Shown here: in pieces, positions 12,841-38,548 of the stretch
Layout: every line of letters starts with the position of its first letter
How positions within the stretch are numbered: the stretch's first letter is position 1
Assembly (NCBI GenBank): GCA_001247695.2
Contig: LGRX02035270.1
Location: forward strand, 1 to 64,000
Length of the DNA stretch: 64,000 bases
Origin: Cymbomonas tetramitiformis
Taxonomy: Eukaryota > Chlorophyta > Pyramimonadophyceae > Pyramimonadales > Pyramimonadaceae
Reading direction: 5' to 3'
Made by a program: the position numbers and the translations under genes
The notes under the pieces: model-generated
What the model was told of the DNA's origin: nothing
Database searches by the model: none
What the model saw: only the letters and a program-made list of their open reading frames with translations

Positions 12841-13645
12841 GAGCACCTACGGTTATCTATGGCAGATCTGCATAAGCCGACACCGTGATCCTTGTTATTA
12901 CCGCCGTACCTGCATCCCATGCCCGCCTTGCATTGCTCGCTTCCCAGCTCGCAAATCAGTTATCAATTGAATGATTGTGTGTTGTCATAAACTGAGAATC
13001 AATGTTATAGTAAATATAAGTTTCACTTTGTGACAACTGTGAACTTATGTGAACTTATGTAGATTGAGCTGTGAACTTATGTAGATTTCTGCGATTTTAC
13101 CAGCACCTGTAGGTTTGTGAACTTATGTAGATTTCTGAAAAATTTAAAAGGAACAATCTTTGATTGTTCCCGGTACGATCTTGAAACATGGTTTGTCATT
13201 AACTGAGAATCATCATTATAGTAAATATAAGTTTCTGTTTGTGACACAGGCACACATCTGGAAATTTTGCGATCTGGCTCCGGGAACAATCTTTGATTGT
13301 TCCTTTTATAGTTTGTCATAATTAGAGAAGTAGTATTATAGTAAATCTAAGTTTCTATTTATGACAACTATGAATTTGTGTACTGTGATTTTCCCTCACA
13401 GTGCGATTTGAGCCAGATCTGTGATCGCTGTGATCGGAGCTGATCGGAGCTGATGAGATTACGGGTTGCTATGCTTGTCATTATTAGAAATTGATCTATA
13501 TAGTAAATCTAAGTTTCACTTTCTGACACGCACCGGCTGCAGTGTGATTTATTGAAAAAGTGAGGCAATGGTTACCTAAAATATCGGGCGTTTCATGCTT
13601 TTTTTGCGATCGCACCGGGAACAATCTTTGATTGTTCCTTTTCCT

Positions 13646-13698
13646 TGTCATAAACTGAGAATGGTGTATATAGTAATTTTAAGTTTCTCTTTATGACA
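13646..13698 (-). terminator. 53-bp dyad element, TIR copy nearest the fibre gene
   Basis: Ends TGTCATAA and TTATGACA enclose an asymmetric core that reads TTACTATATA on the minus strand. It lies 36 bases after the stop of the fibre gene (minus strand) and in its direction. Four further copies follow outward at 12983-13035, 13194-13246, 13314-13366 and 13476-13528, all 53 bp and all minus-oriented. The 3'-end role is an inference from position. Confidence 0.55.
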
Positions 13699-13734
13699 AA
13701 ACTTGATTCCTTTTTCTCTTCCGATATCTTATCA

Positions 13735-14544
13735 TTAAGATTGGATTTCTATGAATTTCACAATGAAGCTTGCTTTCATACCTAGTATATCTGCGTCACC
13801 TACTAATTGTAAAGCAAACTGATTACCTGGTTTAGTTATATACGTAAATTGGTTTAATACGTCAAGCCTAGAATCACTTTCGTTAAATTCCGTTTGCGGC
13901 CGAGTAACAGAAACTATATATTTTCTACCTGTGATTTCTGGAGCTGTGATTGGTAAGTTTGATGTATCAAATGTTATGTTCAGAATCTTTCCGCCAGTAG
14001 CTATATCTGATGAAGTAAACGTCAAATTGAAGAAACAAATGAATTTTCCTGCAGGAATTTGCACGGTTCTATCACCTGGAACCCCCCCAGTCAAAGCTGT
14101 AATGACTTGACAACCCTTGTAAGACAACTGTGTCGGCAATGTCAATCTTTCTAAGTCGACGTTTTGAGCTCCATTAATATCACCCGACATGTTAATTGTG
14201 AAAAACCTATTTGTAGCTGCATCAGGTTTCCTTTGAAAATTTATAAAATATATAGTTTCAGCATCTGGTATGTTTACACCAGCGGTATTTAAACTAATAA
14301 AAGCAGTACCTGATGTTTTATTTCCAAATAAATCAATATTTGTGGTATTATTTGGTGCGGTGTTGTTTATCTCACCATTTACCCGTAAATTATTTTGAAC
14401 TATTACATTTCCATTTGTTCTTTCAATGTCATTTGTCGTACCTGACACATTTGACCATTTGCTCGATCCACCGTCTGGGGGATTGCCATTAATCGTATCA
14501 CATGTTAAATTCTTACAAACTAAACTTTGTCCAAAACTTGACAT
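13735..14544 (-). CDS. Fibre-like virion protein with MSxFG N-terminus
   Basis: A 269-residue protein starting MSSFGQSLVCKNLTCDTING. The N-terminal 25 residues resemble those of the proteins at 15107-17053 and 17076-17519, suggesting a common particle anchor. The rest is Asn/Thr/Gly-rich and strand-like with no charged clusters, as in receptor-binding fibres (inference). It is the first gene beside the left terminal repeat and 13 bases downstream of the protease gene. No enzymatic motif is seen. A structural role is supported by position beside capsid genes on the same strand. Confidence 0.6.
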   Translation of the reverse strand: MSSFGQSLVCKNLTCDTINGNPPDGGSSKWSNVSGTTNDIERTNGNVIVQNNLRVNGEINNTAPNNTTNIDLFGNKTSGTAFISLNTAGVNIPDAETIYFINFQRKPDAATNRFFTINMSGDINGAQNVDLERLTLPTQLSYKGCQVITALTGGVPGDRTVQIPAGKFICFFNLTFTSSDIATGGKILNITFDTSNLPITAPEITGRKYIVSVTRPQTEFNESDSRLDVLNQFTYITKPGNQFALQLVGDADILGMKASFIVKFIEIQS

Positions 14545-14557
14545 ATATCATATGTAC

Positions 14558-15097
14558 TTATTTAAATTTCACGCGGTATCGTTTAAAGTGTTTTATATGT
14601 GATATACCTAACAATCCTATAGCGTTAGGATAAACCAATACCGAGCCTTCTGTGACTTCACCGGTCGCTGGTAATATTAAAGGAACGTCGGAATATTGTG
14701 TTGTGGCAACCGAACCGCCTATACCGGTAGCACGTTGTGGTTGATTATGATAATCGGACGTACCGTCTGGTTTAATTATTCCTATAAGTCTGGCATCTGC
14801 TGTGCTCATTTGGGTGGACGTTGCCCCTGTATCATATATTAAAATGGCGTTTGCACCGGTCCCACCCTCTAATGATACGTTCACCCTAGATTGACGTTGA
14901 TCTGTTTTTGCTTTTGTTTTTGGTAAGTTCTGTTTATTATATCTAACTACGTTTCCTTGGGCGTCAGCAATATTTCTTACCTTGCATCGAGTATTTGCAA
15001 GTCTACCATTTATAATACCTTTTATTCTCATACCCACCCCATCTTGAACGATGGTTTCACAACTTGGTAAATTAGGATTATTTCGCTTTACAGGCAT
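14558..15097 (-). CDS. Retropepsin-like aspartic protease
   Basis: A 179-residue protein. Residues 86-97 read LIYDTGATSTQM, the hydrophobic-Asp-Thr-Gly-Ala catalytic signature of clan AA proteases, with D89 as the predicted catalytic Asp. A Gly-rich flap-like stretch (ATGIGGSVATTQ, about 123-134) follows, and AIGLLGISHI (159-168) matches the second hydrophobic-Gly motif of retropepsins. The 85-residue N-terminal extension is basic and could be a propeptide or packaging segment. Retropepsins act as dimers; one active-site motif per chain fits. It sits inside the virion module between two fibre genes, so a role in particle maturation is likely (inference). I see no adenovirus-type cysteine protease elsewhere in the element. 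Confidence 0.75.
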   Translation of the reverse strand: MPVKRNNPNLPSCETIVQDGVGMRIKGIINGRLANTRCKVRNIADAQGNVVRYNKQNLPKTKAKTDQRQSRVNVSLEGGTGANAILIYDTGATSTQMSTADARLIGIIKPDGTSDYHNQPQRATGIGGSVATTQYSDVPLILPATGEVTEGSVLVYPNAIGLLGISHIKHFKRYRVKFK

Positions 15098-15106
15098 TTA
15101 CAATAA

Positions 15107-17053
15107 TCAGGTAAAATAATTGAATCCTGGGCTTACCCAAATCAATACACCGCCACCAGCAGCGGCAACTTTAGATTCCATAGCTGTTCCGATGTATGAA
15201 TCGCCCGCTGTGATCTGAGCACTATTAATTTCCCCACCTACTATGCATTTCACACGTTGACCCTTCACATACGTATTATCTGTAGCAGCGGCATTCCTAC
15301 ATGTCGTGAAACCACGTCCGATCAACACAAAACAACTTTGAGTTGTAGCACTGTCTTGAATACAGACACCGATGGGTGTGCAGTTTTGGTTACTTTGAGT
15401 ATACGAGTTATTAAAAGGTTGAACTCCATTTACGGTGTTTATTCCATCATCATCAAACATGACAATCGTTGCAGCCGTAATGGTATTAGCGGTGTTATTA
15501 ACAAATGTAAATACATCCCCGGTGAACCGAAGCGGACTGGTTGGAAGAGTGGTATTAGCGTACGCTTTCGTAATCAGTGTCAACGGTACGCCTGATAGTG
15601 TGAGTGAATTGGTTGAACTTGGATAAGCGTAATTTAATGAATTGGATAAAATAACAGACGCAGAATTTAATTCATCCAATTCCGCAGTTGAACCGGTATT
15701 GCCCACAGCCAATACTTGAGATAAACTTGGAACACCGCCGCCACTGGAAACAGGACCATATCGCACCTCATTGGATGCTGTGTCATAATGCAACATTTGT
15801 GACTCGCTTGCTGGATCGGGACTGGCCCTGACAGGTCTGATATAAAAACTACTTGCGACACCGGCGTTTAATTCAACCCCGCTTGCATTCAAAACGATTG
15901 TGTTATCAGTGTTAACCGCACTCTGAGTAGAGTTTTGTCCTGCGAGAGCACCTATGTTTATGGAACTTTCACCGGCTGTAAATTCCCCTGCATATTTTCC
16001 GATGTTCACGGCTGCATCTTTGCAATTGTTCTGCCCACAGTCGTCCCCAATAGACACGACATAAGAACCGCAATTGTTATTGCATGAACCAGAACCAATT
16101 GCAATCGTATCATTACTTGTTGTATTGTTAATAGATAATGCATTGCGGCCGATTGCGATAGAACGGTCTCCAATGTGGTCGGCATTGGTAAACCCTTGAG
16201 TCTGCTCACCGATGCTAACTTTCCCAAATCCACCAGAGCCACTTTCAATTCTAAGATTATTCCCACTAAGTTTCTCTTGATTGACAATCATGGTACCTGT
16301 ACCTGTATATGAAACATCGGCGACACTGCTTGCAGCCCCTCGGGTGGTCACATCTTGAAGTGTAGATGTATCAGGTTGAACTGGGAGATTTGTTAACGCT
16401 GACCCATCACCCACAAATGCAGAAGCACTAATACTATTTGTGGTCGTGCTACCTTGGTCAGTGACCGATTGTAGATTCTGATTTGCACCAGAAGGTAAGT
16501 TTGTCAAAAGGCTTCCATCTCCGCGATATTTGCCTGCAGTCAATGTGATATCACCGCTGTTGAGCACGAGTGGACCGTCGTTGATTAATAGACCACTGCC
16601 CAATGGCTCTATATTGATTGTCGTTTGCATACATGTAATTTCATTAATACCGGTTTCCCCAATTGAGACTCGTGTTTGTTCAACAGGATCCAAGCTTTTA
16701 ATCTCAAACGATGCATCGAGGTCATCGAGACCTGCTGAAAATCGTGATTTGGAAACCGGGTTGTTCAACACGAAATCGTTGAATTTGATTGATGTGTGTA
16801 CTTTTAGCGACCCATCTGTCAACAAGGACATTTGTTCTCGTTCATTCAATGGGTCTTGAGTATCTATAAATTTGATATCGTTCTGGTAGCGTATGTCCGA
16901 GCCGATGTGCATGGTCTCAAGCGGTGATTCAAGGCTGCCTATAGTTTGACACACCACTGTATCGCACGTTAGTGTATCGGTTGGACCCGTGCCATTTACA
17001 AATGGTTTACCGTTGATTTCTGTTACAATTAAATTTGAACCGAAAGCTGACAT
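15107..17053 (-). CDS. Large fibre/adhesin-like virion protein with YadA-type head repeats
   Basis: A 648-residue protein beginning MSAFGSNLIVTEINGKPF. Residues from about 295 to 385 contain repeats of the form SIAIGRNA, TIAIGSGS, VVSIGDDC, AVNIGKYA and SINIGALA, the pattern of trimeric autotransporter heads, here with paired Cys residues. A segment ending MLHYDTASNEVRYGPV resembles linkers of large-virus fibre proteins. The last 150 residues (with GDSYIGTAMESKVAAAGGGV near the end) form a separate domain that recalls small phage decoration or tip proteins. A TATA-like box (TATAATATATA) directly precedes the ATG. Likely a trimeric host-attachment fibre; the exact target is unknown. Confidence 0.65.
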   Translation of the reverse strand: MSAFGSNLIVTEINGKPFVNGTGPTDTLTCDTVVCQTIGSLESPLETMHIGSDIRYQNDIKFIDTQDPLNEREQMSLLTDGSLKVHTSIKFNDFVLNNPVSKSRFSAGLDDLDASFEIKSLDPVEQTRVSIGETGINEITCMQTTINIEPLGSGLLINDGPLVLNSGDITLTAGKYRGDGSLLTNLPSGANQNLQSVTDQGSTTTNSISASAFVGDGSALTNLPVQPDTSTLQDVTTRGAASSVADVSYTGTGTMIVNQEKLSGNNLRIESGSGGFGKVSIGEQTQGFTNADHIGDRSIAIGRNALSINNTTSNDTIAIGSGSCNNNCGSYVVSIGDDCGQNNCKDAAVNIGKYAGEFTAGESSINIGALAGQNSTQSAVNTDNTIVLNASGVELNAGVASSFYIRPVRASPDPASESQMLHYDTASNEVRYGPVSSGGGVPSLSQVLAVGNTGSTAELDELNSASVILSNSLNYAYPSSTNSLTLSGVPLTLITKAYANTTLPTSPLRFTGDVFTFVNNTANTITAATIVMFDDDGINTVNGVQPFNNSYTQSNQNCTPIGVCIQDSATTQSCFVLIGRGFTTCRNAAATDNTYVKGQRVKCIVGGEINSAQITAGDSYIGTAMESKVAAAGGGVLIWVSPGFNYFT

Positions 17054-17075
17054 TATATATTATACTTTTTATATT

Positions 17076-17519
17076 TTAATCTGTATTCCGATAAGATGTT
17101 GAAATCACATACCAATTTCCTGGAATGTCAACAATGGTAGTTCCTGATTGAAACGTCCTTTCGCCTGATGCAATTAGAGTGACGCTCGTTATACTTTCGC
17201 CATTGGTTGTACCATTTTCCAAAGTAATATCGCCGTCAATTGTGTCTGAATATCCATTTATTCTGTCACCGTCAAACTTTTGAAGAGTCACTATTCCGCC
17301 CGTTCTGGCTGTTCCGTTATAAATTGTAAACATTTTACCTTTGATAGCAGGTAGACATTCCGGCAACCGAACAGTTGAAGCAGTATCACCTAATATAATT
17401 TGATTCTGTACATCATCCTTTGTTAATTGTATCAATGTTCCATTTCTTAGTGTTGTGCGAAACGTAGTATTGGCATAAGTCAAGGTTTTTGCATTCAATT
17501 CATTTCCGAAAGCTGACAT
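17076..17519 (-). CDS. Small fibre-head-like protein with MSxFG N-terminus
   Basis: A 147-residue protein starting MSAFGNELNAKTLTYANTTF, sharing its first residues with the two larger fibre candidates. The body has the layout of strand-rich tip domains (TVRLPECLPAIKGKMFTIYN, then ESITSVTLIASGERTF and GNWYVIS), known in tail-fibre and large-virus surface proteins. GTATATACAATG places a TATA-like box against the start. It lies 13 bases downstream of the 106-residue gene. Likely a minor surface protein on the virion. Confidence 0.55.
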   Translation of the reverse strand: MSAFGNELNAKTLTYANTTFRTTLRNGTLIQLTKDDVQNQIILGDTASTVRLPECLPAIKGKMFTIYNGTARTGGIVTLQKFDGDRINGYSDTIDGDITLENGTTNGESITSVTLIASGERTFQSGTTIVDIPGNWYVISTSYRNTD

Positions 17520-17532
17520 TGTATATACTAAT

Positions 17533-17853
17533 CTATGAAAAAAACAAAGGTACAGGTTGCAACAATCGACTATTCAATGGATGCTCCATCGGAAAATGGA
17601 ACATTTCCATCTTTTGAGAAAGCTTTTCACCATGCCCTAAAGTATAACTTTTGTATCCCGCCAAAGGATGAACGTTGCTTATCCTGAATGGTGGATATGT
17701 GATGTCATTGATTGTTTTACACGGGAGTTGTTGCATCATAATCGGTCTAAAACCTGACATTTGAAACATCGTCGCGGTGTGAATCTGTTTGTCCACGTTC
17801 GGTCCTACATCTTTTATCATGTTGTACCCAACCAATCCTGATTGTTGAGCCAT
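17533..17853 (-). CDS. Hypothetical virion-module protein, 106 residues
   Basis: Starts MAQQSGLVGYNMIKDVG and ends in a hydrophobic LLQPVPLFFS. Rich in Met, Pro and His, no family recognised. It lies between the small fibre-head gene and the major capsid gene with short gaps and its own TATA-like box (AATAGTATACAAACATG), so it probably belongs to the particle or its assembly. Confidence 0.55.
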   Translation of the reverse strand: MAQQSGLVGYNMIKDVGPNVDKQIHTATMFQMSGFRPIMMQQLPCKTINDITYPPFRISNVHPLAGYKSYTLGHGEKLSQKMEMFHFPMEHPLNSRLLQPVPLFFS

Positions 17854-17876
17854 GTTTGTATACTATTAACCGCTTT

Positions 17877-19211
17877 TTAAAATACCGTTTCGATCACACG
17901 GTTTTGACCGATACGAAGAACTGCGGTTGTTTCGCAAATAATCATTACCTCGTTACTGCCTGTCAGATTTACCCTTTGTAAATCGTCAACTGGTTGTGCT
18001 ACATGAGTTTGAAAATAGAAGGAACTATTCAAACCCCGAGAATCCAATCCTGTTAGGCTTCTGACGCCCATTTCTGAGGGAAGATTTAAACGTACCATAG
18101 GAATGAACTGATTGTTGAGCCAATCTTCATAACTGTTAATCTTACAACCCGATAGCGTACCATAGTTGTCAGCTTTACCGATACAGAGCAGATTGAACGC
18201 TGCAAGAGGATCGACTCGATAGTTAGGAACGAACAGGTTATTCAAGTTAAATTGTAGAGCACCTAAATGACCAGCTGAAAATCTAAAGTAAGACGGGAGG
18301 TAAGATGTACCACAGGTGTTTTCCAATTTGATAAGTCCTAAAGGTTTATCCCGATAATCCCCTGGGCGTTGAACAGCATATATGTTATCAATACACTGTG
18401 AACTCAAAGAGAATCGCGTACTTTTGTCCATCGTAGAGGCCCCTTCAAAAAATGAAAAATAGTTCTTATACGGAATTTCTAAAAAACCGTCACGCAATTT
18501 TGATTCCACGGCGGCATCGTAGACACCTGAACTGAAAGTGATTGTTTCTACGGTAAAGTAAAGGTCGTCTAATAAAAAGTCCCCTTGTGAGATTAAAGTC
18601 TGTTGGGCTTTTTCCGTGAGATCGACTTCAGGTGGACTACCTTGGACAAACGCTCCTAACACCTCAGGCCCGTGCATGTATAGCCTTATTTGGATCGGGC
18701 TAATTAAGCTGGTATCAATGTATGAAGGTTCTGCTTCTCCTAATATGCTGAGCCAGGTATTCAAGATGTATGGACGTGGTGTGGCATAGAAATTGTCAGC
18801 AACATTGATTTCTTGATTTTTGAGAACACGTTGATAAGTCATTTCTTTACTGAGCGTTGTTTTGATAGTGTCGAGAACGGTTGCTACCGTGCTGTAAGAT
18901 TGAAAACCAGTGGTCAATTGCTGCCCTCCTGCGAACACCTCACACCTAGAGATGAGCTTTTCCAACCCGTTGGGAAGCGTAACAATTAAATCTTTATTTC
19001 CATTGTCCGTATATGGTATAGGAGTTTTGCACGAACCTTTGCAATGCATACTGAGACTTTTCATATTAACGATGGAATTGACAGGCAGATTCAAAGTTAT
19101 AGTTGAATACCTCGATGCTTTAGTAAGATTAGTGGTTTCCAATCTGAAGTAATTGGTGGAATACGAGTTCATTTTCGATAAGCCGTAGGCCAATGACATG
19201 GGGAGGCTCAT
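17877..19211 (-). CDS. Major capsid protein (double jelly-roll type)
   Basis: A 444-residue protein starting MSLPMSLAYGLSKMNSYSTN. Length, the early NSYSTNYFRLETTNLTKASRY segment, alternating strand-rich blocks, and the gene's position immediately next to a penton-like gene match major capsid proteins of Polinton-like viruses. The protein would form trimeric capsomers of an icosahedral shell. An alternative start five residues in (MSLAYGL) cannot be excluded. TATAATATATATAC lies directly upstream of the ATG, the strongest such box in the element, fitting high late expression. The call rests on composition and context rather than a diagnostic motif; structure prediction would settle it. Confidence 0.75.
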   Translation of the reverse strand: MSLPMSLAYGLSKMNSYSTNYFRLETTNLTKASRYSTITLNLPVNSIVNMKSLSMHCKGSCKTPIPYTDNGNKDLIVTLPNGLEKLISRCEVFAGGQQLTTGFQSYSTVATVLDTIKTTLSKEMTYQRVLKNQEINVADNFYATPRPYILNTWLSILGEAEPSYIDTSLISPIQIRLYMHGPEVLGAFVQGSPPEVDLTEKAQQTLISQGDFLLDDLYFTVETITFSSGVYDAAVESKLRDGFLEIPYKNYFSFFEGASTMDKSTRFSLSSQCIDNIYAVQRPGDYRDKPLGLIKLENTCGTSYLPSYFRFSAGHLGALQFNLNNLFVPNYRVDPLAAFNLLCIGKADNYGTLSGCKINSYEDWLNNQFIPMVRLNLPSEMGVRSLTGLDSRGLNSSFYFQTHVAQPVDDLQRVNLTGSNEVMIICETTAVLRIGQNRVIETVF

Positions 19212-19233
19212 TTTTGTATATATATTATAAAGA

Positions 19234-20244
19234 TTATAAAATATCTGAGAGACCAGCAGGTGCTAATTCTTCAACCTTAATGCTTAATGAATAGTTAATA
19301 CTGCCGTCTGATGCTTGGGTCGGAGAGGCCAATGTGATTAGTCTTGCTTTAGAATCTGTAAGTGTGATTCTAAATGAAGTAAATTGAGACCCAGACACTT
19401 CAATAACAAAGTTGTCGTTTGGATCTATGTATCTTATGAAATCTGTCGTCGTGTCACTAGGCAATAGTATTTTCGCCCAGATATCAGAACTGATCATTTC
19501 GTTATTGTTTGTAAAAGTAGAAAGATTGGTTGATTCAATATTGTGTGTTGGTAACGATGTGACCCTAAGGTACAAGGCGTCGTTGGTTTGAATGTTGCAA
19601 GGGTATATCGATTCACATAAGCTGTACTCTACAACATAACTTGTTTGAAACAAGTCTAAGAGCTCAGACACTGTACTCATACCTGCCGTACTGCGGTTAA
19701 CACGGCCACCGAGTACTTGGTCGGAATCGTTGTATTTGCCTGCTCTGGAAACCGAGGTATTTAAGGCGGTGTCTAAAGGAGACCCAAGTATAGCTTGAAA
19801 ATCGCCGCTGACACTAAAAGCTACAAACTTTACATCGGGCTGTGGTGGTCTTAATTCTATACGAAATTTGTTCTCATAATTTAAGGCCCCGCCGTTGTCC
19901 TTGTCATAAGTGATAGTAACTGTGTCTATCGTGCCACCGATGGCAGTTTTTATTGCGGCGGCCAGTTTAGATGTGAATTGATCCAGCTCTGTATAATTTG
20001 CATAAGGTATTTTCACTTCCGTTAAAGTATTATTTGCCGTATCACCCACATAGAAGATGCCATTGGTCTCGTTGATACTATACCATGTCTTTGCACAAGA
20101 GAAAGTATTCAAAGTTAATCTCAGTTTGGTTTGTGCTCGGTAACTTATCAGCTGAGTGGGTATGTTCATTTGCAAAACACGTGCGTCTCCATTGCTATTG
20201 TCTTCGGAAGACAAGAATAGCGTTCTTGTGCTAATTACGCTCAT
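19234..20244 (-). CDS. Penton-like minor capsid protein
   Basis: A 336-residue protein starting MSVISTRTLFLSSEDNSNGD. The N-terminal region (QLISYRAQTKLRLTLNTFSC, then WYSINETNGIFYVGD) follows the pattern of minor capsid proteins of Polinton-like viruses, which are single jelly-roll pentons at the vertices. It is 22 bases upstream of the major capsid gene on the same strand, the conserved pairing in this virus group. Its start overlaps the end of the small upstream gene by 14 bases. Strand-rich, no enzymatic motif. Confidence 0.7.
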   Translation of the reverse strand: MSVISTRTLFLSSEDNSNGDARVLQMNIPTQLISYRAQTKLRLTLNTFSCAKTWYSINETNGIFYVGDTANNTLTEVKIPYANYTELDQFTSKLAAAIKTAIGGTIDTVTITYDKDNGGALNYENKFRIELRPPQPDVKFVAFSVSGDFQAILGSPLDTALNTSVSRAGKYNDSDQVLGGRVNRSTAGMSTVSELLDLFQTSYVVEYSLCESIYPCNIQTNDALYLRVTSLPTHNIESTNLSTFTNNNEMISSDIWAKILLPSDTTTDFIRYIDPNDNFVIEVSGSQFTSFRITLTDSKARLITLASPTQASDGSINYSLSIKVEELAPAGLSDIL

Positions 20245-20443
20245 CTATATTAATATAACAATTATCTTTTATAGAATCAACAGTATCCCGATCTAAAGGA
20301 ATTGGTTCTTCAATGTTTCCAGTACAAAGGTCATCGTAAAATTCTGGACGTTTGATATAATCATCTACAAGCAATTCTACATGAGCATCTTTAATATCGG
20401 GATATTGAAGTTTGGCTAAGCGTATCAATTCTTGACGGTCCAT
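20231..20443 (-). CDS. Small acidic hypothetical protein overlapping the penton gene
   Basis: I prefer the ATG at 20443 (MDRQELIRLAKLQYPDIKDA, 70 residues) because a TATA-like box CTCTATATATTACA precedes it; the frame stays open upstream but only through the 53-bp element. The protein is acidic and predicted helical. It overlaps the penton-like gene by 14 bases, which suggests coupled expression. No family recognised. Confidence 0.5.
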   Translation of the reverse strand: MDRQELIRLAKLQYPDIKDAHVELLVDDYIKRPEFYDDLCTGNIEEPIPLDRDTVDSIKDNCYINIDERN

Positions 20444-20479
20444 TGTAATATATAGAGAATAAATTTGAAAGTTTGAATT

Positions 20480-20532
20480 TGTCACAATTAGAGATTGATG
20501 TATATAGTAAATTAGAATCTCACTTTATGACA
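20480..20532 (-). terminator. 53-bp dyad element after the lipase gene
   Basis: Starts five bases after the lipase-like gene stop (20538) in the same direction, with TGTCACAA and TTATGACA ends and the TTACTATATA core. It also lies upstream of the next gene, which has its own TATA-like box closer to its ATG. Confidence 0.55.
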
Positions 20533-20537
20533 AATCG

Positions 20538-30195: not shown

Positions 30196-30224
30196 AGTCT
30201 AAGTCATAGTACATGTCTATAGGT

Positions 30225-30276
30225 TGTCATAAAGTGAGATTTAATTTACTATATATATCAATCTCTAATTATGACA
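30225..30276 (+). terminator. 52-bp dyad element between ATPase and C5 methyltransferase genes
   Basis: Begins 29 bases after the ATPase stop, plus-oriented. Its right end TTATGACA contains the ATG start codon of the methyltransferase gene (30271), so element and coding sequence overlap by six bases. It could serve as 3' signal of one gene and promoter of the next. Confidence 0.55.
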
Positions 30277-30915: not shown

Positions 30916-30949
30916 TGTATATAGTAATATTAAGTTTCACTTTATGACA
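30897..30949 (-). repeat. 53-bp dyad element overlapping the C5 methyltransferase 3' end
   Basis: Near-identical to the copy at 31001-31053. Its first bases encode the last residues and the TGA stop of the plus-strand methyltransferase, but its core points to the minus strand, the one clear case not in the orientation of the overlapped gene. Confidence 0.6.
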
Positions 30950-30971
30950 AGTTTACAATACCATTAGATCG

Positions 30972-30992
30972 GCAACAATCGAAGATTGTTGC
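30972..30992. terminator. 21-bp perfect hairpin (GCAACAATC stem)
   Basis: Nine-base stem GCAACAATC/GATTGTTGC with a three-base loop, in the gap between convergent methyltransferase and primase-helicase genes. Relatives with the stem GGAACAATC/GATTGTTCC lie at 13150-13170, 13283-13303, 13618-13638 and their right-hand mirrors. Another GCAACAATC form is at 24362-24382 inside the end of the polymerase gene, and an 8-base-stem form at 30144-30164 inside the end of the ATPase gene. A terminator or processing role is inferred from position. Confidence 0.55.
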
Positions 30993-31000
30993 TTTTGATT

Positions 31001-31053
31001 TGTCACTTTTAGAGAATGATGTATATAGTAATATTAAGTTTCACTTTATGACA
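31001..31053 (-). terminator. 53-bp dyad element after the primase-helicase gene
   Basis: Begins three bases after the minus-strand stop at 31057, minus-oriented, with TGTCACTTTT and TTTATGACA ends. A 21-bp hairpin lies just beyond it at 30972-30992. Confidence 0.6.
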
Positions 31054-31056
31054 AGT

Positions 31057-33888
31057 CTACAATACTAATGGCTTTAGCTTTTTCCAAAATGCTACACTCA
31101 CCAAATTATCCCAAAGCTCAACCCTTCTCCTTGATTTAATTTCCTCCTCCGATTCATCCTCGTCAATAAATTGGTATTCTCCATTGAACAATCCAAAGTT
31201 CTTGAAGAGCTGAGGTTTTCTAAATCCCAACAACGTTTTGTGTTCCTCCAAAATCTCCGGTACGACCTCATAGGTGTATCCTCGCTTGTCTTTGTATCTC
31301 ACTTGTTTCCCAATAGTGAATCCATCTCCGAACAAGTGGTGATAGATCTTGCCCAGCAATGCATCAATATCTTTCTTTTGAGTCAGATCGTACCCCTTTG
31401 CTTTCTTTGTCGGAAACATGTTAAAATACTCTTCATTGCATGTGTCACTCTCCTCTTGTGTCAAAGTCTTTTTTGAATCAATGACATTCTTATCCACGTT
31501 CTCAACCATTTCTTGAAACCTTTGTAACCACCACACCTTTGCTTGATCAGATCGTACCAGATTTACAAGAAAGTCCTCTCCATTTTCTATCTTTTCTTTC
31601 ATTTGTGCTTGGTCATATATCCAAAAGTAGCGAGCGACATTGAAGTGCTTCTTTAATAAGTGGTCAGCTTCGTAGTATTTCCTAAAGGTTTGTAGGTCAT
31701 CCTTGGGCACTTCCAACATCTCATGAATTCTTTTGTAAACCTCACATGACATAGGGTCAAATTCTTGTGGAACCTCGGTTTCATCTTCTATTGGTTTCCT
31801 CAACCTTTGTGCTTTAAGATATTGGTTCTCAAAGACGAACCCCTGATTTCTCATTATATTGATGAAGTGAGCTCGTTTATTGGTGTTGTAACAAAGCTCC
31901 TTGTACTCAAATCGTGCCCGAGATTCTAAGTATTCATCGGCCAATTCTTTTGGGATTGATGGCAACTTAAATAGTTCTAATCCCATTGTGTGGGTGCTCT
32001 CCAAATCCTTTCTCACATCTTCAAGTGTCTTCGGGTTTGGTTTGTATTTTTGCTTATAAAAGAAAGCATATACACTTGTGATGTTCCTTTCTCTCATTAC
32101 TTGTTGGGCCATTCCCAAAGGGTTGATGGTGTGTTCTTTATATATTGCAAACACTGGGCGTTTCATCTCTTGATTGTTGCTATCAATCCCATACACTACT
32201 TTTGGAGAATATATTATCTTTTTGGTAGTGTTGAAATCAGGTAGCTTGTCGGTCGTCTTGGTGATCAATACTAAATCGTCATGGTGTGGTTTTAAATGTG
32301 CATACAATTCTTCGGCCAAGGTAGCGGAGTCCATTGGGATCAAGTACTTCTCTTGTTTTAATATCATCTTTCTCATGTCTTCCTCTTTTTTAATCTCGTA
32401 GATCGGAACACCCGAAAAGTGTTTGTGCTTGTTGTATTTGAACATATACTTCTTGTTAATCGTATTCAAAAATTCAATAGAATCGTCACATATGTCTTGA
32501 TCGGTTGCAATGTAATTCCTACTTGTGTTTAGTACGTGTTTTAGATATGGGTAGAGGTGACTCCTAATTGTATTCAAGGTTGTGGCCCCTATAAGATGGT
32601 CATATATAGAGTTCCACTCATCCATGAAAATGGTGTACTCTTTAAAATCAAATCTACTCAATTTGCACAAACTATCTAATTGAATGACAATGTTATCTCC
32701 TTGCTTCAACGAGTCGTCCTCATCGTTGTAGATTTTACAATTGATTCCCGCCTCATTGAACTTTGTATAGTGATCTTCGGCTAGACTCACTCTTGACACA
32801 ATGCTTATAAACTTCATTCCGTTTCTCTTTTCAAGATTGGCTTTAGTGTGGTCCATGAATGTTGTTGTTTTTCCGGTGGCACAACCCGATTTGATGATGT
32901 ATGACTCTCCAAATTTTAGAACGTCCGATCCTTGTTTCTCTTGTAATTTGGAACGCCTTATGACCTTATGAGGTTTGATCTTGTTCCTTGGAAGTCTTTT
33001 CATTTTATGATGATTGACGGCTATCTTCTTCTTTGCTTTGGAAAGTAGCCATGTGATTGAATCAAACTCATTGGGTTTGCATGCATTCCATATCTTGATG
33101 TTGTTATCATGGTCATACTTCGGTTTGGTCTTTGAAAATTCACCCCATTTTGTGAGTTGGTTCAATCCCTTCATGGCATTGGTAAAGAGCCGGAAATCTT
33201 GGTATGTATCAATGATATCAAGAGGTAGCATGCTCAATATGTTATCAATGTCTTTATCGCTTAAGTCATAATACACCTCTCCTTCTTGAGTGTATTCCTC
33301 TTGAGGCTTGATCTCAAACTTTCCGGTTTTTTCATTTTTTTTAGAAGTGGATGTGTAAATGTGTTCCAACAAGAATTGCTTTATTGCCTCCGGCATTTCC
33401 TTGATGGATGTATCATGGTAAACGGTGTAGTCCTTGTGAATGATGCCCTTATCTATATCATATATGTGACTATGTGGTGCTACAATGTATCTTCTATTTG
33501 AGATGATGTCAATTTCATGGGCACTCCTTGAACGGGCAAAATCCTTGTCATATTTAAAATACAAGTGAAATCCTCCTCTACAAGATTGAGCGGTATAGGT
33601 ATTGAACACCCTTGGATCTTTTCCAAAAGCAAGAGTCCATGGATGATTATCCATATCCCACTTATTGGTATCCAAATCTACCACAATCATGTCGTTGACT
33701 TCACCACCGATGATACCAACATTGAAATTTTTGTTTGGTTCTATACCTTTGAATTGCTTCGTTTTGTCGGTATAGAAACCTTTACTATCTTTATGAGGTT
33801 TTTTAGAATTGACCATCAACTTAAACTTGATCATATCTTGAAGGGGGCGAGTATCGTCAAACATAGTGACAACACTTTGGTGGGACAT
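31057..33888 (-). CDS. Primase-helicase replication protein
   Basis: I prefer the ATG at 33888 (MSHQSVVTMFDD, 943 residues) behind GTATATAAGAAAG; the frame has another ATG 15 bases upstream that overlaps the TATA box. The N-terminal part has the archaeo-eukaryotic primase/prim-pol pattern: VVDLDT (D71, D73), GGFHLYF (about 105-111) and IDIISNRRYIVAPHS. A helicase domain follows with Walker A SGCATGKTT (about 336), SIVSRVSL as motif Ia and Walker B IFMDEWNS (about 421), which recalls origin-binding SF2 helicases. The C-terminal 300 residues are unassigned. It would start and unwind replication alongside the polymerase. Followed after three bases by a 53-bp element. Confidence 0.8.
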   Translation of the reverse strand: MSHQSVVTMFDDTRPLQDMIKFKLMVNSKKPHKDSKGFYTDKTKQFKGIEPNKNFNVGIIGGEVNDMIVVDLDTNKWDMDNHPWTLAFGKDPRVFNTYTAQSCRGGFHLYFKYDKDFARSRSAHEIDIISNRRYIVAPHSHIYDIDKGIIHKDYTVYHDTSIKEMPEAIKQFLLEHIYTSTSKKNEKTGKFEIKPQEEYTQEGEVYYDLSDKDIDNILSMLPLDIIDTYQDFRLFTNAMKGLNQLTKWGEFSKTKPKYDHDNNIKIWNACKPNEFDSITWLLSKAKKKIAVNHHKMKRLPRNKIKPHKVIRRSKLQEKQGSDVLKFGESYIIKSGCATGKTTTFMDHTKANLEKRNGMKFISIVSRVSLAEDHYTKFNEAGINCKIYNDEDDSLKQGDNIVIQLDSLCKLSRFDFKEYTIFMDEWNSIYDHLIGATTLNTIRSHLYPYLKHVLNTSRNYIATDQDICDDSIEFLNTINKKYMFKYNKHKHFSGVPIYEIKKEEDMRKMILKQEKYLIPMDSATLAEELYAHLKPHHDDLVLITKTTDKLPDFNTTKKIIYSPKVVYGIDSNNQEMKRPVFAIYKEHTINPLGMAQQVMRERNITSVYAFFYKQKYKPNPKTLEDVRKDLESTHTMGLELFKLPSIPKELADEYLESRARFEYKELCYNTNKRAHFINIMRNQGFVFENQYLKAQRLRKPIEDETEVPQEFDPMSCEVYKRIHEMLEVPKDDLQTFRKYYEADHLLKKHFNVARYFWIYDQAQMKEKIENGEDFLVNLVRSDQAKVWWLQRFQEMVENVDKNVIDSKKTLTQEESDTCNEEYFNMFPTKKAKGYDLTQKKDIDALLGKIYHHLFGDGFTIGKQVRYKDKRGYTYEVVPEILEEHKTLLGFRKPQLFKNFGLFNGEYQFIDEDESEEEIKSRRRVELWDNLVSVAFWKKLKPLVL

Positions 33889-33955
33889 CTTTCTTATATA
33901 CATGTACTTCTCTTTTCTTTAAGTAGTTTATAGACATGGACGAAACGAAAAAAAT

Positions 33956-34141
33956 TTATATTTGCAAGATTTTTTCTGCCTCTTTTTTCAGTCTATACAT
34001 TTCTCGTCTTTTGGCATTGATCTCATCCTTATGTAGGGCGTAAAATCTCCTTGAAGACTTTCTTACAAGCTCTCTCACTTGATCTATATGGGTGTCTCTA
34101 TACCGCTTTTGGGCGACTTTCAAGGCTTCGCTACGAGCCAT
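33956..34141 (-). CDS. Small basic helical protein, 61 residues
   Basis: Start chosen at the ATG at 34141 (MARSEALKVAQKRYRD), behind GTATATATCAATA; the longer frame begins inside that box. Almost entirely charged helix with Arg, Lys and Tyr spaced as in small nucleic-acid-binding proteins (FYALHKDEINAKRREMYRLK). No family name can be given. Confidence 0.5.
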   Translation of the reverse strand: MARSEALKVAQKRYRDTHIDQVRELVRKSSRRFYALHKDEINAKRREMYRLKKEAEKILQI

Positions 34142-34182
34142 TATTGATATATACATGCAATATAACCTTTAAGTTTTTTATT

Positions 34183-34535
34183 TGTCATAAAGTGAAACTT
34201 AAATTTAGTATATACATCAATCTCTAATTGTGACAAGGTCTTAAGGTCAAAATCGCAAAAAATTGAGCCGAAGATTTTCTGCTCCGAAATGGTCAATTAG
34301 GGTTTGTCACAAAGTGGAACTTAATATTACTATATACATCAATCTCTAATTGTGACAAATGACGCCAAAGCCAGCCAAAATTTGCTTAAACATAATCGGA
34401 AAACTCAAAAAATGACTTTAAAATGTCAAAATCGCAAAAAATTGAGCCGGAGATTTTAAACCCTAAATGGCCCATATGGGTTTGTCATAAAGTGGAACTT
34501 AATATTACTAAATACATCAATCTCACTTTATGACA
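34183..34535 (+). repeat. Three plus-oriented 53-bp dyad elements in a row
   Basis: Copies at 34183-34235, 34305-34357 and 34483-34535. The last two are each preceded by a direct repeat of about 68 bases that contains GTCAAAATCGCAAAAAATTG. The third has 12-base perfect arms (TGTCATAAAGTG/CACTTTATGACA). No plus-strand gene precedes them, so this cluster resembles the multi-copy arrays in the terminal repeats. Confidence 0.8.
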
Positions 34536-35077
34536 CCCGCGAAAAATACTGCCAAAAAATGGGCGAAAACAGAGCCTTAAAACGACAAAAACTGCAGCCT
34601 GCAGATCGCGAAATTTCTCTACCTTTTCAGAGTCTGAAATAATAAAAAATACTGATCGGAAAAAAAAATTATGACAATAGTACGTATTAGTACTCAGATG
34701 GGCGACACGTCGATAGATACTTATTGTCTATTGTCATTTTGCGGAATGCTCCCGGACCACACGCGGACTACACGCGGATTGAAGGCGGTTACACAAAATC
34801 TTTTTTAAATAGAATCTTTCTTAACATCGGTCCGATTGGAGGTTTAAAATATCTACCAGATTTTGTCCGCGTGTAGTCCGCGTGCAGTCCGCGATCAGTC
34901 CGCGTGTAGTCCGGGAGCAGTCCGCGTGTCCCCGGTGACCTATGCAACATTGACAACTAGTGTAACACACTATCGTGTGACACTGCTTTCAAAACAATAT
35001 TTGAAAAAACAATTATCAGCTTGCCCACAATATCGCCTCACAAACTGTTTACGGTACGTTCTGTTCACAGAGATATC
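34236..35077. other. Intergenic block with repeats and two inverted repeats
   Basis: Holds the two direct 68-base repeats with 53-bp elements, then a dyad at about 34671-34738 (ATGACAATAG ... CTATTGTCAT). A GC-rich foldback follows: GCTCCCGGACCACACGCGGA (34748-34767) faces 34866-34918, where AGTCCGCGTGTAGTCCGCG words repeat four times before CCGGGAGC. Base composition shifts from AT-rich to balanced here, marking the edge of the block that contains the two-part gene. No coding sequence is called. Confidence 0.6.
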
Positions 35078-36009
35078 ATGAACTCCTCGCCCCGTGTCCC
35101 CGATGATGTGATCATATGCCCTAAGACTGGAGCTGAATGGGCATTTATGGCCAATCCCTTTGGCTGTCCGGAACCAATTCGTAAGGCCAACGTAGGAAGC
35201 AAGATAAAGTGTTGCTGCCGTAGGAAGTCAAAGAAAACTGGCGTATGGACAGAGTGTGAGGCATCCGCTGGTCGCCAACTTCCTTTCTTCTCAGAGCAAC
35301 ATCTGTCTCCTTTGATGCCACTGCTAGACCCGGCTCGCTTGAAGCCGCTTATCCTGGAGTGTTTTGACTGCGACGATCCGCAGCTTTACGCCCTTGTGGC
35401 AAACAAGTTCCGGAAGTTTGTCGCAGACTCTGTCAGTGCTTATGAGTCGGGAAAGATAATTCAGATGTGTGACAACTCGGTCACTGCAAGTATCCTTAGT
35501 AAGGGTGAAGCTGACGCCAAAGAGCTCGTTGTTGATGCGGCTGCGGCTTTCGCTGATTTTTCCCTTGCGACACCTCAGTCTTCAAGCCTCGTGTTATCTC
35601 CGCTCACACCGTCTCCTCACAGTGCGGTTTACCAGAAACCACAGCGTCGTTGCGAAAAGGCTCGCAGTCCGCATCTCGCGGAGTCAGTCCAGTCTGCACC
35701 TGCAGCAGTTGACCGCATGTTTGAGTCAATGACCCTCAACGCATCACCGAAGGTTCCCGAGATAACGTTTTTTAAAACGATAACGAGTGAGCGTGACCAG
35801 CTTCTCGCTGAAAATGCGGAGCTTCGTTCTGAGCTGAAGGGTTTCAAGAGAACTCTAGGAGATATTGAGGCCCGTCATTCGCTTGAGTTAAATAAACTCC
35901 GGTCTCAGTTAGAGAATCCGGGTCAGGCAGAAAACGACGAGTCTCAAGAATACGAGTCTGACGAGTCTGATGAGGAAGGCTCGGAAGATGCGACTGACGC
36001 CGACGATAG
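35078..36009 (+). CDS. First exon or ORF of a two-part cargo gene: Cys-rich and coiled-coil protein
   Basis: From the ATG at 35078 (MNSSPRVPDDVIICPKTG) the frame codes for 311 residues to an unspliced stop at 36011. A Cys-rich N-terminal module (VGSKIKCCCRRKSKKTG, then WTECEAS) may bind zinc. A Ser/Pro-rich middle, a coiled coil (SERDQLLAENAELRSELKGF) and an acidic end (ESDESDEEGSEDATDADD) follow. At 36010 GTGAGT follows the coding sequence, and a pyrimidine-rich stretch ends in TTTGTGCAG at 36183, so an intron is likely. Codon use and GC content differ from the virus core genes, suggesting acquisition. Function unknown. Confidence 0.55.
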
Positions 36010-36183
36010 GTGAGTACTAACGTGTTTGTGTGTTTGGCATGCGTGCAGGCCTTTCACTCTTTTTGTTATCTTCTTTATTATACAAGTATGTGCCCGCATT
36101 GTCGCCCAGTTCCTGTTCAATGCGTTTGTTTTCTTCTCACCTTTTATTCTAACATTTCGTTCCTTTGTCGTGTGTTTGTGCAG
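36010..36183 (+). other. Candidate 174-base spliceosomal intron
   Basis: Starts GTGAGTACTAACG (a consensus donor followed by a TACTAAC-like word) and ends with a T-rich tract and TTTGTGCAG. Joining at these sites leaves the downstream frame shifted by one base relative to the upstream one, so either the true sites differ, a base is wrong, or the parts are separate. A second AG (36047-36048) would define a 39-base intron followed by a hydrophobic open frame to a stop at about 36191. Confidence 0.45.
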
Positions 36184-36755
36184 TGGCAACTGAGCTTCGT
36201 CGTACTCGTTCTACAAAGCAGCAGGAGACCGAACCGGATCGTGCTGCTGAGCCCCCTCGGTCTCGTAGCCGTGGGCGGCAGGATACTGTGTGGCTTGTCC
36301 GTGGTGGCCCAGGCCACGGGAGTTACCGCATCTTTGCGGCGGCCATTGACGCGGGATACTATGACCGCATGCCGGAGAACGCAATAAAACTTGTTGGTGC
36401 GGAGTGTGCCTTTGCGGATGAGTGGTTGGGACGGCCCCCGAAGAAGACTGGACGGTGGGCTTCGTTCAAGAAGGGGGTCAAACGCAGCAATCCGTTTGTC
36501 AAGTGGCTGCTTGTGTCCATTCTTGTGACTGCTTTCCTGTCAGCAGTTTATGTTCTTATCGTGTCCGTGGACGAATGGTTAGACTGCAAGACCCTGTGGA
36601 ACGGGTCTAATATGGTATGCTCTCAAATAAAAAAGATAGAGAGTTTGGTATCTGAGAACATGATTTTTGTAGCTGGAGTTCTCGGTCTTGAATTGGCTGG
36701 TATCATTATGTGGTTCCTAACCACCTTAGTGAACCTACTGTTTGGTGAGGACTAA
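36184..36755 (+). CDS. Second exon or ORF of the cargo gene: two-span membrane protein
   Basis: About 190 residues with no ATG near the beginning, which argues for an exon. The start is basic and Pro-rich (LRRTRSTKQQETEPD, SRSRGRQDT). A globular part contains VWLVRGGPGHGSYRIFAA and ECAFADEWLGRPP. Two membrane spans follow: KWLLVSILVTAFLSAVYVLI and MIFVAGVLGLELAGIIMWFL, separated by a short loop with two Cys residues. The end is LFGED. A viral membrane or host-interaction protein is possible. No family recognised. Confidence 0.5.
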
Positions 36756-36871
36756 GTCTCCATCAGTGTTCAGCTGCCAATCCGTAGTTCAGCAACCCTT
36801 AACTATTTTGGTATTATCTTTTTTCACATTTCAATATGATTTTTAGCTGTTCAGTGATACTGTTTGAGCAC

Positions 36872-37060
36872 CCTGCAGTGATAACTCATGATCATATTCA
36901 CTTCACATAATATTGCGATTGTTGTGATATCATACCTGCAGTGATAACTCATGATCATATTCACTTCACATAATATTGCGATTGTTGTGATATCATACCT
37001 GCAGTGATAACTCATGATCATATTCACTTCACATAATATTGCGATTGTTGTGATATCATA
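36872..37060. repeat. Three 63-bp tandem repeats
   Basis: Units begin CCTGCAGTGATAACTCATG at 36872, 36935 and 36998, identical as far as I can see, with a degenerate fourth start at 37061. They fill most of the gap between the cargo gene and the downstream end of the N6/N4 methyltransferase gene. Each contains an ATGATCAT dyad and GTTGTGATATCATA. They could be binding sites or a recombination scar at the edge of the cargo block. Confidence 0.9.
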
Positions 37061-37091
37061 CCTTCAGTGATAACAAACACTTAACATATCA

Positions 37092-37799
37092 TTATAGCAA
37101 CATCTGCTCAGCTTCAACATAATATTTATTACTTCTTTCAACACCAATAAATCTGCGATTATCATTATGGCACACTTTACCCACCGTACCGATACCCATG
37201 AATGGGTCTAATATCAAGTCATCCTCATTTGAATAAGTTTTAACGATCCACTCTAATATACCATAAGGCTTCGCCGTCGGGTGTTTGCTTTTGTGATTAC
37301 CGTTCGCAATAGTTATCACAGACTTCGGAAATCGTTTACCATCAGATGTTGTATTAATTCTCGGACTGTTTCCGGTATATAATTCAGTGCGTCTACCCGG
37401 CACACGTGTGTACGGTTTACCGTCAGTCATTTGTGGATTATAAGTAGGTAACTTATCATAGAATACATACAGCATCTCATGACTGCGTAGTGGCATCTGA
37501 TTGCAATGATAAAATCCAGAACTGACCGTTTTCTGCCACACAATATCATATCTAAACATCTTCTCGTTGCTGGATATTAACTTATGTCCGAACCGAGTCG
37601 TGCAAAAGAATACATATGCCGTTCGGGGTTTACCGATACGTTTCAATTGTTTCCATAATTTATCCAAGTCGATAATCTGATTGTCAAATTTACAAGCAGT
37701 TTGATTATAAGGCAAATCTAAAATAATTAAATCAATTGAGTTACTATCAATGTTCGGTAAAATGTCAAAACAATCTGCGTGGAATGTCTGGGTCGCCAT
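37092..37799 (-). CDS. N6-adenine/N4-cytosine DNA methyltransferase
   Basis: Start chosen at the ATG at 37799 (MATQTFHADCFDILPNIDSN, 235 residues), because the 13 codons upstream lie in the terminal repeat. Motif IV is DLPY (28-31), placed before motif I-like DPFMGIGTVG near the C-terminus, the beta-type order. HPTAKP precedes it as in many such enzymes. The frame is intact. It would methylate virus DNA; the site cannot be read from sequence. It is the last gene before the right terminal repeat, and GATATCTTA precedes the ATG. Confidence 0.85.
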   Translation of the reverse strand: MATQTFHADCFDILPNIDSNSIDLIILDLPYNQTACKFDNQIIDLDKLWKQLKRIGKPRTAYVFFCTTRFGHKLISSNEKMFRYDIVWQKTVSSGFYHCNQMPLRSHEMLYVFYDKLPTYNPQMTDGKPYTRVPGRRTELYTGNSPRINTTSDGKRFPKSVITIANGNHKSKHPTAKPYGILEWIVKTYSNEDDLILDPFMGIGTVGKVCHNDNRRFIGVERSNKYYVEAEQMLL

Positions 37800-37832
37800 T
37801 AAGATATCGGAAGAGAAAAAGGAATCAAGTTT

Positions 37833-38548
37833 TGTCATAAAGAGAAACTTAAAATTACTATATACACCATTCTCAGTTTATGACAAGGAAAAGGAACAAT
37901 CAAAGATTGTTCCCGGTGCGATCGCAAAAAAAGCATGAAACGCCCGATATTTTAGGTAACCATTGCCTCACTTTTTCAATAAATCACACTGCAGCCGGTG
38001 CGTGTCAGAAAGTGAAACTTAGATTTACTATATAGATCAATTTCTAATAATGACAAGCATAGCAACCCGTAATCTCATCAGCTCCGATCAGCTCCGATCA
38101 CAGCGATCACAGATCTGGCTCAAATCGCACTGTGAGGGAAAATCACAGTACACAAATTCATAGTTGTCATAAATAGAAACTTAGATTTACTATAATACTA
38201 CTTCTCTAATTATGACAAACTATAAAAGGAACAATCAAAGATTGTTCCCGGAGCCAGATCGCAAAATTTCCAGATGTGTGCCTGTGTCACAAACAGAAAC
38301 TTATATTTACTATAATGATGATTCTCAGTTAATGACAAACCATGTTTCAAGATCGTACCGGGAACAATCAAAGATTGTTCCTTTTAAATTTTTCAGAAAT
38401 CTACATAAGTTCACAAACCTACAGGTGCTGGTAAAATCGCAGAAATCTACATAAGTTCACAGCTCAATCTACATAAGTTCACATAAGTTCACAGTTGTCA
38501 CAAAGTGAAACTTATATTTACTATAACATTGATTCTCAGTTTATGACA
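37833..38548 (+). repeat. Five 53-bp dyad elements of the right terminal repeat
   Basis: Copies at 37833-37885, 38003-38055, 38165-38217, 38285-38337 and 38496-38548 mirror those on the left and point outward. Hairpins of the 21-bp family lie between them at 37893-37913, 38228-38248 and 38361-38381. Confidence 0.85.

Follow-up and report, generated by a model that had tools for sequence, protein, structure and literature searches.

A polinton-like provirus in the green alga Cymbomonas tetramitiformis, lying in contig LGRX02035270.1, carries a family of dyad elements of near-constant length, 53 bp in most copies, which occupy the larger gaps between its genes and form an array just inside each of its termini. 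The window, as the term is used here, is the whole stretch of DNA analyzed, positions 1 to 64,000 of the forward strand of this contig. The elements form at least three classes (A, B, and C) with different ends, and the classes replace each other at orthologous gaps; the two arms of an element change class together without covarying pair by pair, and class B is associated with one version of the primase-helicase gene. Read from sequence, this evidence points to a protein-binding punctuation system, and neither to a signal for RNA ends nor to a small mobile unit. The explanation that we favor, and hold only tentatively, is that the 53-bp elements may mark boundaries as duplex DNA sites bound by a dimeric, class-specific factor.

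Class A was delimited by scanning the whole window for TGTCA..TGACA pairs spanning 35-75 bp. Nineteen pairs with a TTA[C/G]TA core were found, all within 12983-38548, of which 18 are 53 bp long and one is 52 bp; six core-less pairs, four in the provirus and two outside, are unrelated. The same 19 copies scored 37.9-54.7 bits in an nhmmer search with a profile of 14 independent copies. The remaining nhmmer matches in the window were the opposite strand of these copies (at most 18.5 bits) and 28635-28675 (7.8 bits), the latter being a twentieth element, a 49-bp relative at 28631-28679 with different ends. A sequence-only reading of the window had counted twenty copies of about 53 bp; the twenty dyads stand, as 19 class-A elements plus one 49-bp class-B element. 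Since 10 of the 19 class-A copies lie in the identical terminal inverted repeats, the independent copies number 14, among which 30897/31001 and 34183/34305/34483 are tandem duplicates. The elements are, with coordinates and strand:

12983..13035, minus: class A, outermost of the left repeat (TGTCA..TGACA scan)
13194..13246, minus: class A (same scan)
13314..13366, minus: class A (same scan)
13476..13528, minus: class A (same scan)
13646..13698, minus: class A, 36 nt past the stop of gene 13735-14544 (same scan)
20480..20532, minus: class A, tandem gap between the lipase-like gene and u84; B or C here in sister proviruses
24153..24205, plus: class A, convergent gap between the DUF5754-like gene and the protein-primed family B DNA polymerase gene (pPolB); B or C here in sister proviruses
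24216..24268, minus: class A, same convergent gap, overlapping the final 8 bases of pPolB
28631..28679, minus: class B, GTTCC..GGAAC, 49 bp, divergent gap u150/u160; class A here in L065, L074, and L075
30225..30276, plus: class A, 52 bp, tandem gap between the ATPase-like gene and the cytosine methyltransferase gene, including the methyltransferase ATG
30897..30949, minus: class A, convergent gap between the methyltransferase and primase-helicase genes, 19-base overlap with the methyltransferase gene; class B in register in L081
31001..31053, minus: class A, tandem duplicate, 3 nt off the primase-helicase stop
34183..34235, plus: class A, 26 nt 5′ of the u66 ATG
34305..34357, plus: class A (same scan)
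34483..34535, plus: class A, arms near-perfect
37833..37885, plus: class A, 33 nt 5′ of the N6/N4 methyltransferase ATG (37799)
38003..38055, plus: class A (same scan)
38165..38217, plus: class A (same scan)
38285..38337, plus: class A (same scan)
38496..38548, plus: class A, outermost of the right repeat (same scan)

Both class-A halves start with TGTCA, so that the element is a dyad, though an imperfect one with an asymmetric, TTTACTATA-like center. Invariant in the 14 copies are the first and last five bases, AAA at 7-9, G12, T17, TTA at 23-25, T27, A28, A30, and TC at 41-42. The end octets TGTCATAA and TTATGACA, earlier given as the ends, are thus constant at TGTCA, AA at 7-8, and TGACA, and are otherwise a majority form. 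A second palindrome, ACAATC NNN GATTGT with variable but mostly complementary ends (GGAAC..GTTCC, GGCAAC..GTTGCC), occurs at 13149-13171, 13282-13304, 13617-13639, 24361-24383, and 30971-30993, with mirror copies from 37892, 38227, and 38360; its distance from a dyad element is 4-92 bp within the window and, for the nearest one, 353 bp in L072.

The restriction of the family to the provirus, asserted in the sequence-only reading, holds within the window; the host assembly (851.7 Mb, 25,745 contigs) contains 668 + 608 = 1,276 matches to a spaced class-A pattern, against none for a reversed-pattern control. Twenty stretches from 19 contigs, picked among 100 class-A places listed, were fetched, and all 20 are proviral: 18 carry a gene matching this provirus, while L070 and L073 carry outer terminal-repeat sequence. 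Copies scattered through host DNA without viral genes, which had been named as grounds for abandoning the idea, were therefore not encountered in these stretches, and the proposed scan of related proviruses recovered the 53-bp architecture in sister proviruses, in classes A and C, along with class-B elements. A length-free profile search of the fetched stretches and the window gave 84 matches, three of them partial; of the 81 covering the full profile, 78 are 53 bp long, and six of the 84 lack exact TGTCA and TGACA ends. The sequence-only reading was right in that this is a genuine family of constant-length dyads linked to virus genes. Some class-A copies (C270:38685, C450:5364, and C1163:35824) seem to combine the left half of one terminal-repeat copy with the right half of the adjacent one, as recombination in the center would produce.

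Placement of the elements follows the division of the provirus into gene units. Between the 20 annotated genes are 19 gaps, including one of 2,935 bp between u66 and the N6/N4 methyltransferase gene, whose accessory open frames were not counted as genes. Elements are present in all six gaps of at least 75 bp, of which two are convergent, three tandem, and one divergent, but in none of the 13 gaps of at most 52 bp; of 790 element bases, 33 fall within genes (15 elements, including the class-B copy and leaving out those of the right repeat). Because the larger gaps are filled whatever their polarity and the shorter ones are empty, the elements mark boundaries of gene units and not 3′ ends. The six gene-end placements reported earlier (stops at 13735, 20538, 24150, 24261, 30195, and 31057) are real, with spacings of 2-36 nt and, at 24261, an overlap of 8 gene bases; as a rule, however, 3′-end placement fails, since elements also fill the divergent gap, the 5′ flank of u66, and both terminal repeats. 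Two facing pairs in convergent gaps had likewise been proposed, of which 24153/24216 do face each other while 30897 and 31001 point the same way. The tandem-gap element at 20480-20532 lies 5 nt from the lipase stop and 36 nt from the u84 ATG, the latter set at 20443 in agreement with the 70-amino-acid form of sister loci. Immediately 5′ of gene 33956-34156 are three tandem copies (34183-34535), oriented against the N6/N4 methyltransferase gene, the next gene ending towards them, 2.6 kb off, and the five right-repeat copies lie 5′ of gene 37092-37799. In the sister proviruses L065, L074, and L075, class A also occupies the divergent gap, which has a gene start on either side, and an extra copy in L065 is oriented against both neighbors. 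Counting duplicates and repeats once, by hand, six of seven placements match the direction of the gene ending before them.

The exchange of classes is the main result. Class B (GTTCC..GGAAC) has 255 + 262 = 517 matches genome-wide (control 0 + 1). Class C (AAATGTTNCC..GGNNACATTT), first met in four of the fetched stretches, has 227 + 235 = 462 rows (control 0 + 1), a count that covers both strands, many rows being one palindrome read on both; it is 53 bp long at 61 of 62 distinct listed places, with 42-60 bp permitted. Hybrids of A and B are almost absent from the host assembly: TGTCA..GGAAC was found 0 times (control 4) and GTTCC..TGACA in eight rows, two of them overlapping (control 1). Eight hybrids against 1,793 A and B matches indicate that both arms change class together. 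At the gap between the methyltransferase and primase genes, two class-A copies in the window and in L064 correspond to one class-B copy in L081 with the same start base. Aligned without gaps, the commoner A half-site (e.g., that of 20480) and the L081 B half-site read TTGTCATAAAGTGAGATT and TTGTTCCAAAGTGAGATT and differ at three bases, as TTGT followed by CAT (A) or TCC (B) and then AAAGTGAGATT; the two class-A copies sharing this gap differ from the B half-site at more bases. Terminal repeats vary as well: in 13 distinct stretches (27 minus duplicates and short ones), the outermost site is A in six, B in five, and B plus A in two, while the outer part of the repeat is 82-96% identical across A- and B-type repeats, some of these matches being partial.

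Orthologous gaps were compared with the integrase gene as anchor, using 94 of 1,708 integrase candidates listed (93-100% identical); 16 of these loci lie on contigs covered by the class-B and class-C lists, the class-A list covering seven of the 16. The convergent gap between the DUF5754-like gene and pPolB is filled by a listed element at 12 of the 16 loci. Measured from the integrase start to the near end of the element and corrected for the start of the protein match, the first element lies at 279 bp where it is A (C270), 280 bp where it is B (two loci), and 281-283 bp where it is C (nine loci), compared with 281 bp for the window's own A. As the element keeps a near-constant position while the adjoining integrase at exchanged loci stays 94-98% identical to that of the window, the classes exchange locally. 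The lipase/u84 gap is filled at nine of the 16 loci, and both scored gaps of one provirus belong to the same class in eight of nine cases, C270 being the exception.

Conservation of the element was compared with that of its flanks in 75 distinct sister copies, each paired with the best-matching window site. In three bands of flank identity, element and flank identities were 0.90 and 0.82, 0.93 and 0.90, and 0.99 and 0.98, and gap columns numbered 42 in elements and 2,647 in flanks. Both comparisons are biased towards element conservation, since copies were found with a pattern that prescribes 16 positions and restricts length to 51-55 bp, and since the flank gaps include alignment ends; the length-free profile result is free of the length bias. 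Within 52 distinct 53-bp class-A copies, arm covariation was absent, no variable pair exceeding independence by more than four copies (observed and expected: positions 6/48, 19 and 25.0; 10/44, 12 and 8.2; 11/43, 18 and 22.1; 14/40, 16 and 20.1; 16/38, 9 and 7.0). This argues against a selected RNA stem, whereas arms that are coupled without pairing base by base are as expected from a dimer reading two half-sites.

These observations would be accounted for if a sequence-specific factor bound the element as a dimer, with one half-site per arm and a fixed spacing over the partly conserved, asymmetric center. One or more sites in each sizeable gap between units, together with the array just inside each viral terminus, would then act as boundary marks. 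Like phage stoperators, the sites when occupied would most likely block or insulate transcription that would otherwise pass from one unit to the next, or between the provirus and the host genes beside it; the terminal arrays may also serve replication or packaging. The factor would be class-specific (A, B, or C), so that a virus would tend to keep one class at its internal boundaries. The unit boundary, both provirus ends included, is the common denominator of all placements, which is why boundary sites are preferred and replication sites bound by the primase are placed next.

Several results weigh against this account. The direction bias is not significant (one-sided binomial, 0.06) and could be chance, and the sites in divergent gaps (B at 28631; A in L065, L074, and L075) would place a blocker between promoters with no obvious use. 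Four of the 16 loci have neither A, B, nor C, as exact patterns, in either gap. The two gaps of C270 differ in class (A and B), and terminal repeats are often of another class than the interior (B, or B plus A, in the C-rich C289, C1788, C2184, and C2850), so class matching is loose. The loci behind the link between class B and a primase version belong to related proviruses among the places listed, and the class C predicted beside the third primase version was not found, no listed C site lying on C606 or C1222. Arm coupling, finally, would also follow from inheritance of the element as a unit, to which the hybrid-looking class-A copies in terminal repeats (e.g., C270:38685) run counter.

The foremost alternative, though a doubtful one, is that the elements are replication sites, the primase-helicase or u66 binding the dyads as Rep binds iterons and being loaded at the terminal arrays, with the internal copies as secondary loading sites or autoregulatory operators. 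The clustering at the termini, where 10 of 19 copies lie within an outer domain that is similar in A- and B-type repeats, and the adjoining rep-like u66-primase unit are what an iteron-type origin would show. An element stands 25-28 bp before the u66 start in seven of eight loci (six A, one B); the closest exact match in L079 lies at a distance of 182 bp. Primase-helicase loci were listed for 48 of 282 candidates scored and for 80 of 299 in a further search, and on contigs of the class-B list, seven of the scored loci carry the same version as the window, ten that of L081, and three a third version (915-916 amino acids). A class-B site lies within 800 bp of the primase in 7/10 loci of the L081 version, compared with 0/7 and 0/3 for the others (Fisher, 0.0015 for 7/10 and 0/10, kinship not corrected). 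We treat this association as a lead, because the loci are kin, come from among the places listed, and were scored on exact site matches. Against replication sites stands the filling, at the loci counted above, of two gaps distant from the primase gene, the convergent gap (6.8 kb) and the lipase gap (10.5 kb), neither of which end replication needs. The mixture of classes in terminal repeats, the failed prediction for the third primase version, and the u66 of L067, which by eye is like the one linked to class B in L081 although its sites are class A, weigh in the same direction.

An RNA hairpin at transcript 3′ ends, directing cleavage and polyadenylation as in Mimiviridae and Sputnik, is improbable. 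It would suit the sense-direction element that follows six genes by at most 36 nt or overlaps their stops, and the arms do stay complementary through class change. The 3′-processing signal suggested in the sequence-only reading is nonetheless disfavored, because class-A arms do not covary and the center is partly conserved as sequence. When ten copies were folded as RNA, z ranged from -6.6 to -0.1 and lay above -2 in six; elements also stand in divergent gaps and 5′ of units. Mimivirus signals lack a conserved sequence (PMC4402537, available part); retention of structure under a varying sequence, as expected of that type, is not what the elements show.

We regard promoter activator or operator sites as comparably improbable: elements end 20-52 bp 5′ of the start codons of u84, u66, the N6/N4 methyltransferase gene, u160, and u150, and one has a 6-base overlap at the cytosine methyltransferase start codon, but four elements lie in two convergent gaps with no gene to drive, and one of those gaps, DUF5754/pPolB, is filled in most sister loci. 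The least probable alternative is that two or three related 49-53 bp inverted-repeat families spread as tiny mobile units confined to viral gaps, for which the inverted ends, the many copies, the added A copy in some proviruses (L065), and the CAAT pair flanking the A-bearing stretch that distinguishes B+A from B-only terminal repeats could be cited, and against which stand flanking direct repeats of 4-10 bp no commoner at window copies (3/15) than at random places (468/2,000), the retention of site-specific versions across proviruses, the replacement of one class by another within a few bases of the same position, and the lack of any copy outside proviral DNA in the 20 fetched stretches. The CAAT pair is the one candidate for the target site duplication expected of a miniature inverted-repeat transposon; the occurrence of both B-only and B+A repeats, which could pass for empty and filled sites, would also be explained by recombination. 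The mobile unit targeting 3′ ends that had been offered as a second possibility is disfavored on the same grounds.

If boundary-marking sites for a class-specific factor are the right explanation, an extension, in our judgment unlikely, is that the polinton-like viruses of this host comprise three or more types of incompatibility or immunity, each with its own factor and matching dyad class. Resident proviruses would then be silenced jointly, and same-type kin would be recognized while other types escaped. Local exchange of sites between proviruses would switch type while the genes stayed 94-98% alike, and stoperator-like immunity would exist in a eukaryotic virus. Such a system would touch on the silence of endogenous polinton-like viruses and virophages and on why each answers some helpers only. 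Sites with switchable specificity, which a single host genome holds in 1,276 + 517 + 462 matching rows, give a handle on the binding factor, and the dyad classes offer a sequence test for virus types within one host.

The provirus itself has the organization of a Polinton-like or Maverick-type element, with terminal inverted repeats of 1,006 bp each that have no mismatches and a 6-bp direct duplication, ACTGGT, outside both ends (12720-12725 and 38806-38811). Its domains comprise pPolB (PF03175, 132.6 bits, cut-off 25.8), an rve integrase (PF00665, E 5.3e-07, 30.3 bits, just below the cut-off of 32.6), a Prim-Pol/PriCT_2/DEAD primase-helicase, a lipase, and C5-cytosine and N6/N4 methyltransferases. 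GC content around it is mostly higher, with a low stretch at 6-9 kb. The gene at 17877-19211, without a Pfam match, we take to be probably the major capsid protein gene, judging from the size and position usual in the group. The features referred to above are:

12726..38805, no strand: polinton-like provirus (terminal repeats and target duplication; pPolB, rve integrase, Prim-Pol, and methyltransferase domains)
12726..13731, no strand: left terminal inverted repeat, holding five class-A elements
37800..38805, no strand: right terminal inverted repeat, holding five class-A elements
17877..19211, minus: putative major capsid protein, assigned by position and size only
22526..23872, minus: rve integrase, anchor for the orthologous-gap comparison (domain match)
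24261..28139, minus: protein-primed family B DNA polymerase, pPolB (domain match)
31057..33903, minus: primase-helicase (Prim-Pol, PriCT_2, DEAD), candidate class-linked gene (domain matches)
33956..34156, minus: u66, small basic protein, first in the primase unit

Outside the provirus, a low-GC remnant at 6346-8454 holds a second pPolB (PF03175, 62.7 bits) together with a frame resembling endonuclease VII that scores below the cut-off (21.1 bits). Inside it, a GC-richer accessory block at 34665-37090, between u66 and the N6/N4 methyltransferase gene, has frames of 330 and 196 amino acids, the latter with likely membrane spans by eye; related frames occupy this position in the sister proviruses L078, L079, and L081. 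Three tandem copies of a 63-bp unit, 99-100% identical, lie at 36872-37074. Many of the listed primase and integrase copies in the host assembly have no internal stop, so that part of the provirus load looks recent. In L079 (C450), the outer terminal-repeat domain occurs twice, at 4840-5108 and 5609-5870, 0.8 kb apart, as if termini were nested. In L063 (C86), the start of the primase gene runs into the lipase gene across a class-A element (5700-7530), a junction that suggests a large deletion at or near elements.

The sequence-only reading knew of no such signal in this virus group, and literature searches turned up none either. In the open literature found on virophages, EMALEs, and polinton-like viruses, no title or opening of an abstract describes such an element, nor does one appear among the repeats and motifs in the available text of PMC8547959, PMC10945749, PMC12721341, and PMC12220804; PMC11464507 does not mention hairpin, palindrome, terminator, or polyadenylation. 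IMG/VR searches with the integrase, the primase, and the capsid and polymerase alignments gave no related locus. Three of four element patterns had no match in that database, and the loosest gave 30 single matches of at most 8.2 bits.

Among systems with related features, iteron origins and the ends of adenovirus genomes provide one comparison: redundant packaging and replication repeats lie near the ends of a linear genome that is copied by a protein-primed polymerase. The elements resemble these in forming redundant sites near termini, and differ in that they also occupy internal gaps between units and that their classes are interchangeable. The polinton-like viruses of cryptophytes and Oxyrrhis and the mavirus-like elements of Cafeteria share pPolB, integrase, terminal repeats, and many copies per protist genome with the present provirus, but the dyad family is not mentioned in the available text of their descriptions (PMC12220804, PMC12721341, PMC8547959). 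In EMALE04 virophages, as far as the available text reports, the terminal repeat changes along with the version of the primase/helicase (PMC10945749). Dyad classes are a possible reason for this joint change; that text describes neither a site family nor an exchange of classes nor internal copies. The hairpin polyadenylation signals of Mimiviridae and Sputnik are likewise dyads at gene 3′ ends in viruses of protists, but are palindromes without conserved sequence that end transcripts, according to the available part of PMC4402537, whereas the present elements are constant in sequence and length and occupy gaps of every polarity.

Among phages, the analogue is the stoperator. In cluster A mycobacteriophages such as L5 and Bxb1, some 20-30 dispersed sites are bound by a repressor reported to block elongation, and the consensus is type-specific (PMC6550527 and PMC9283540, available parts). 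Stoperators are 13-14 bp long, lack dyad symmetry, are bound by a monomer, and are mostly oriented with transcription, whereas the elements described here are dyads of 49-53 bp whose bias in direction, six of seven, is not significant; the host is moreover a eukaryote. Most stoperators, like the elements, do not stand at promoters (PMC6550527, same part). In both cases the genome of an integrating virus carries many dispersed intergenic sites whose sequence is specific to a type.

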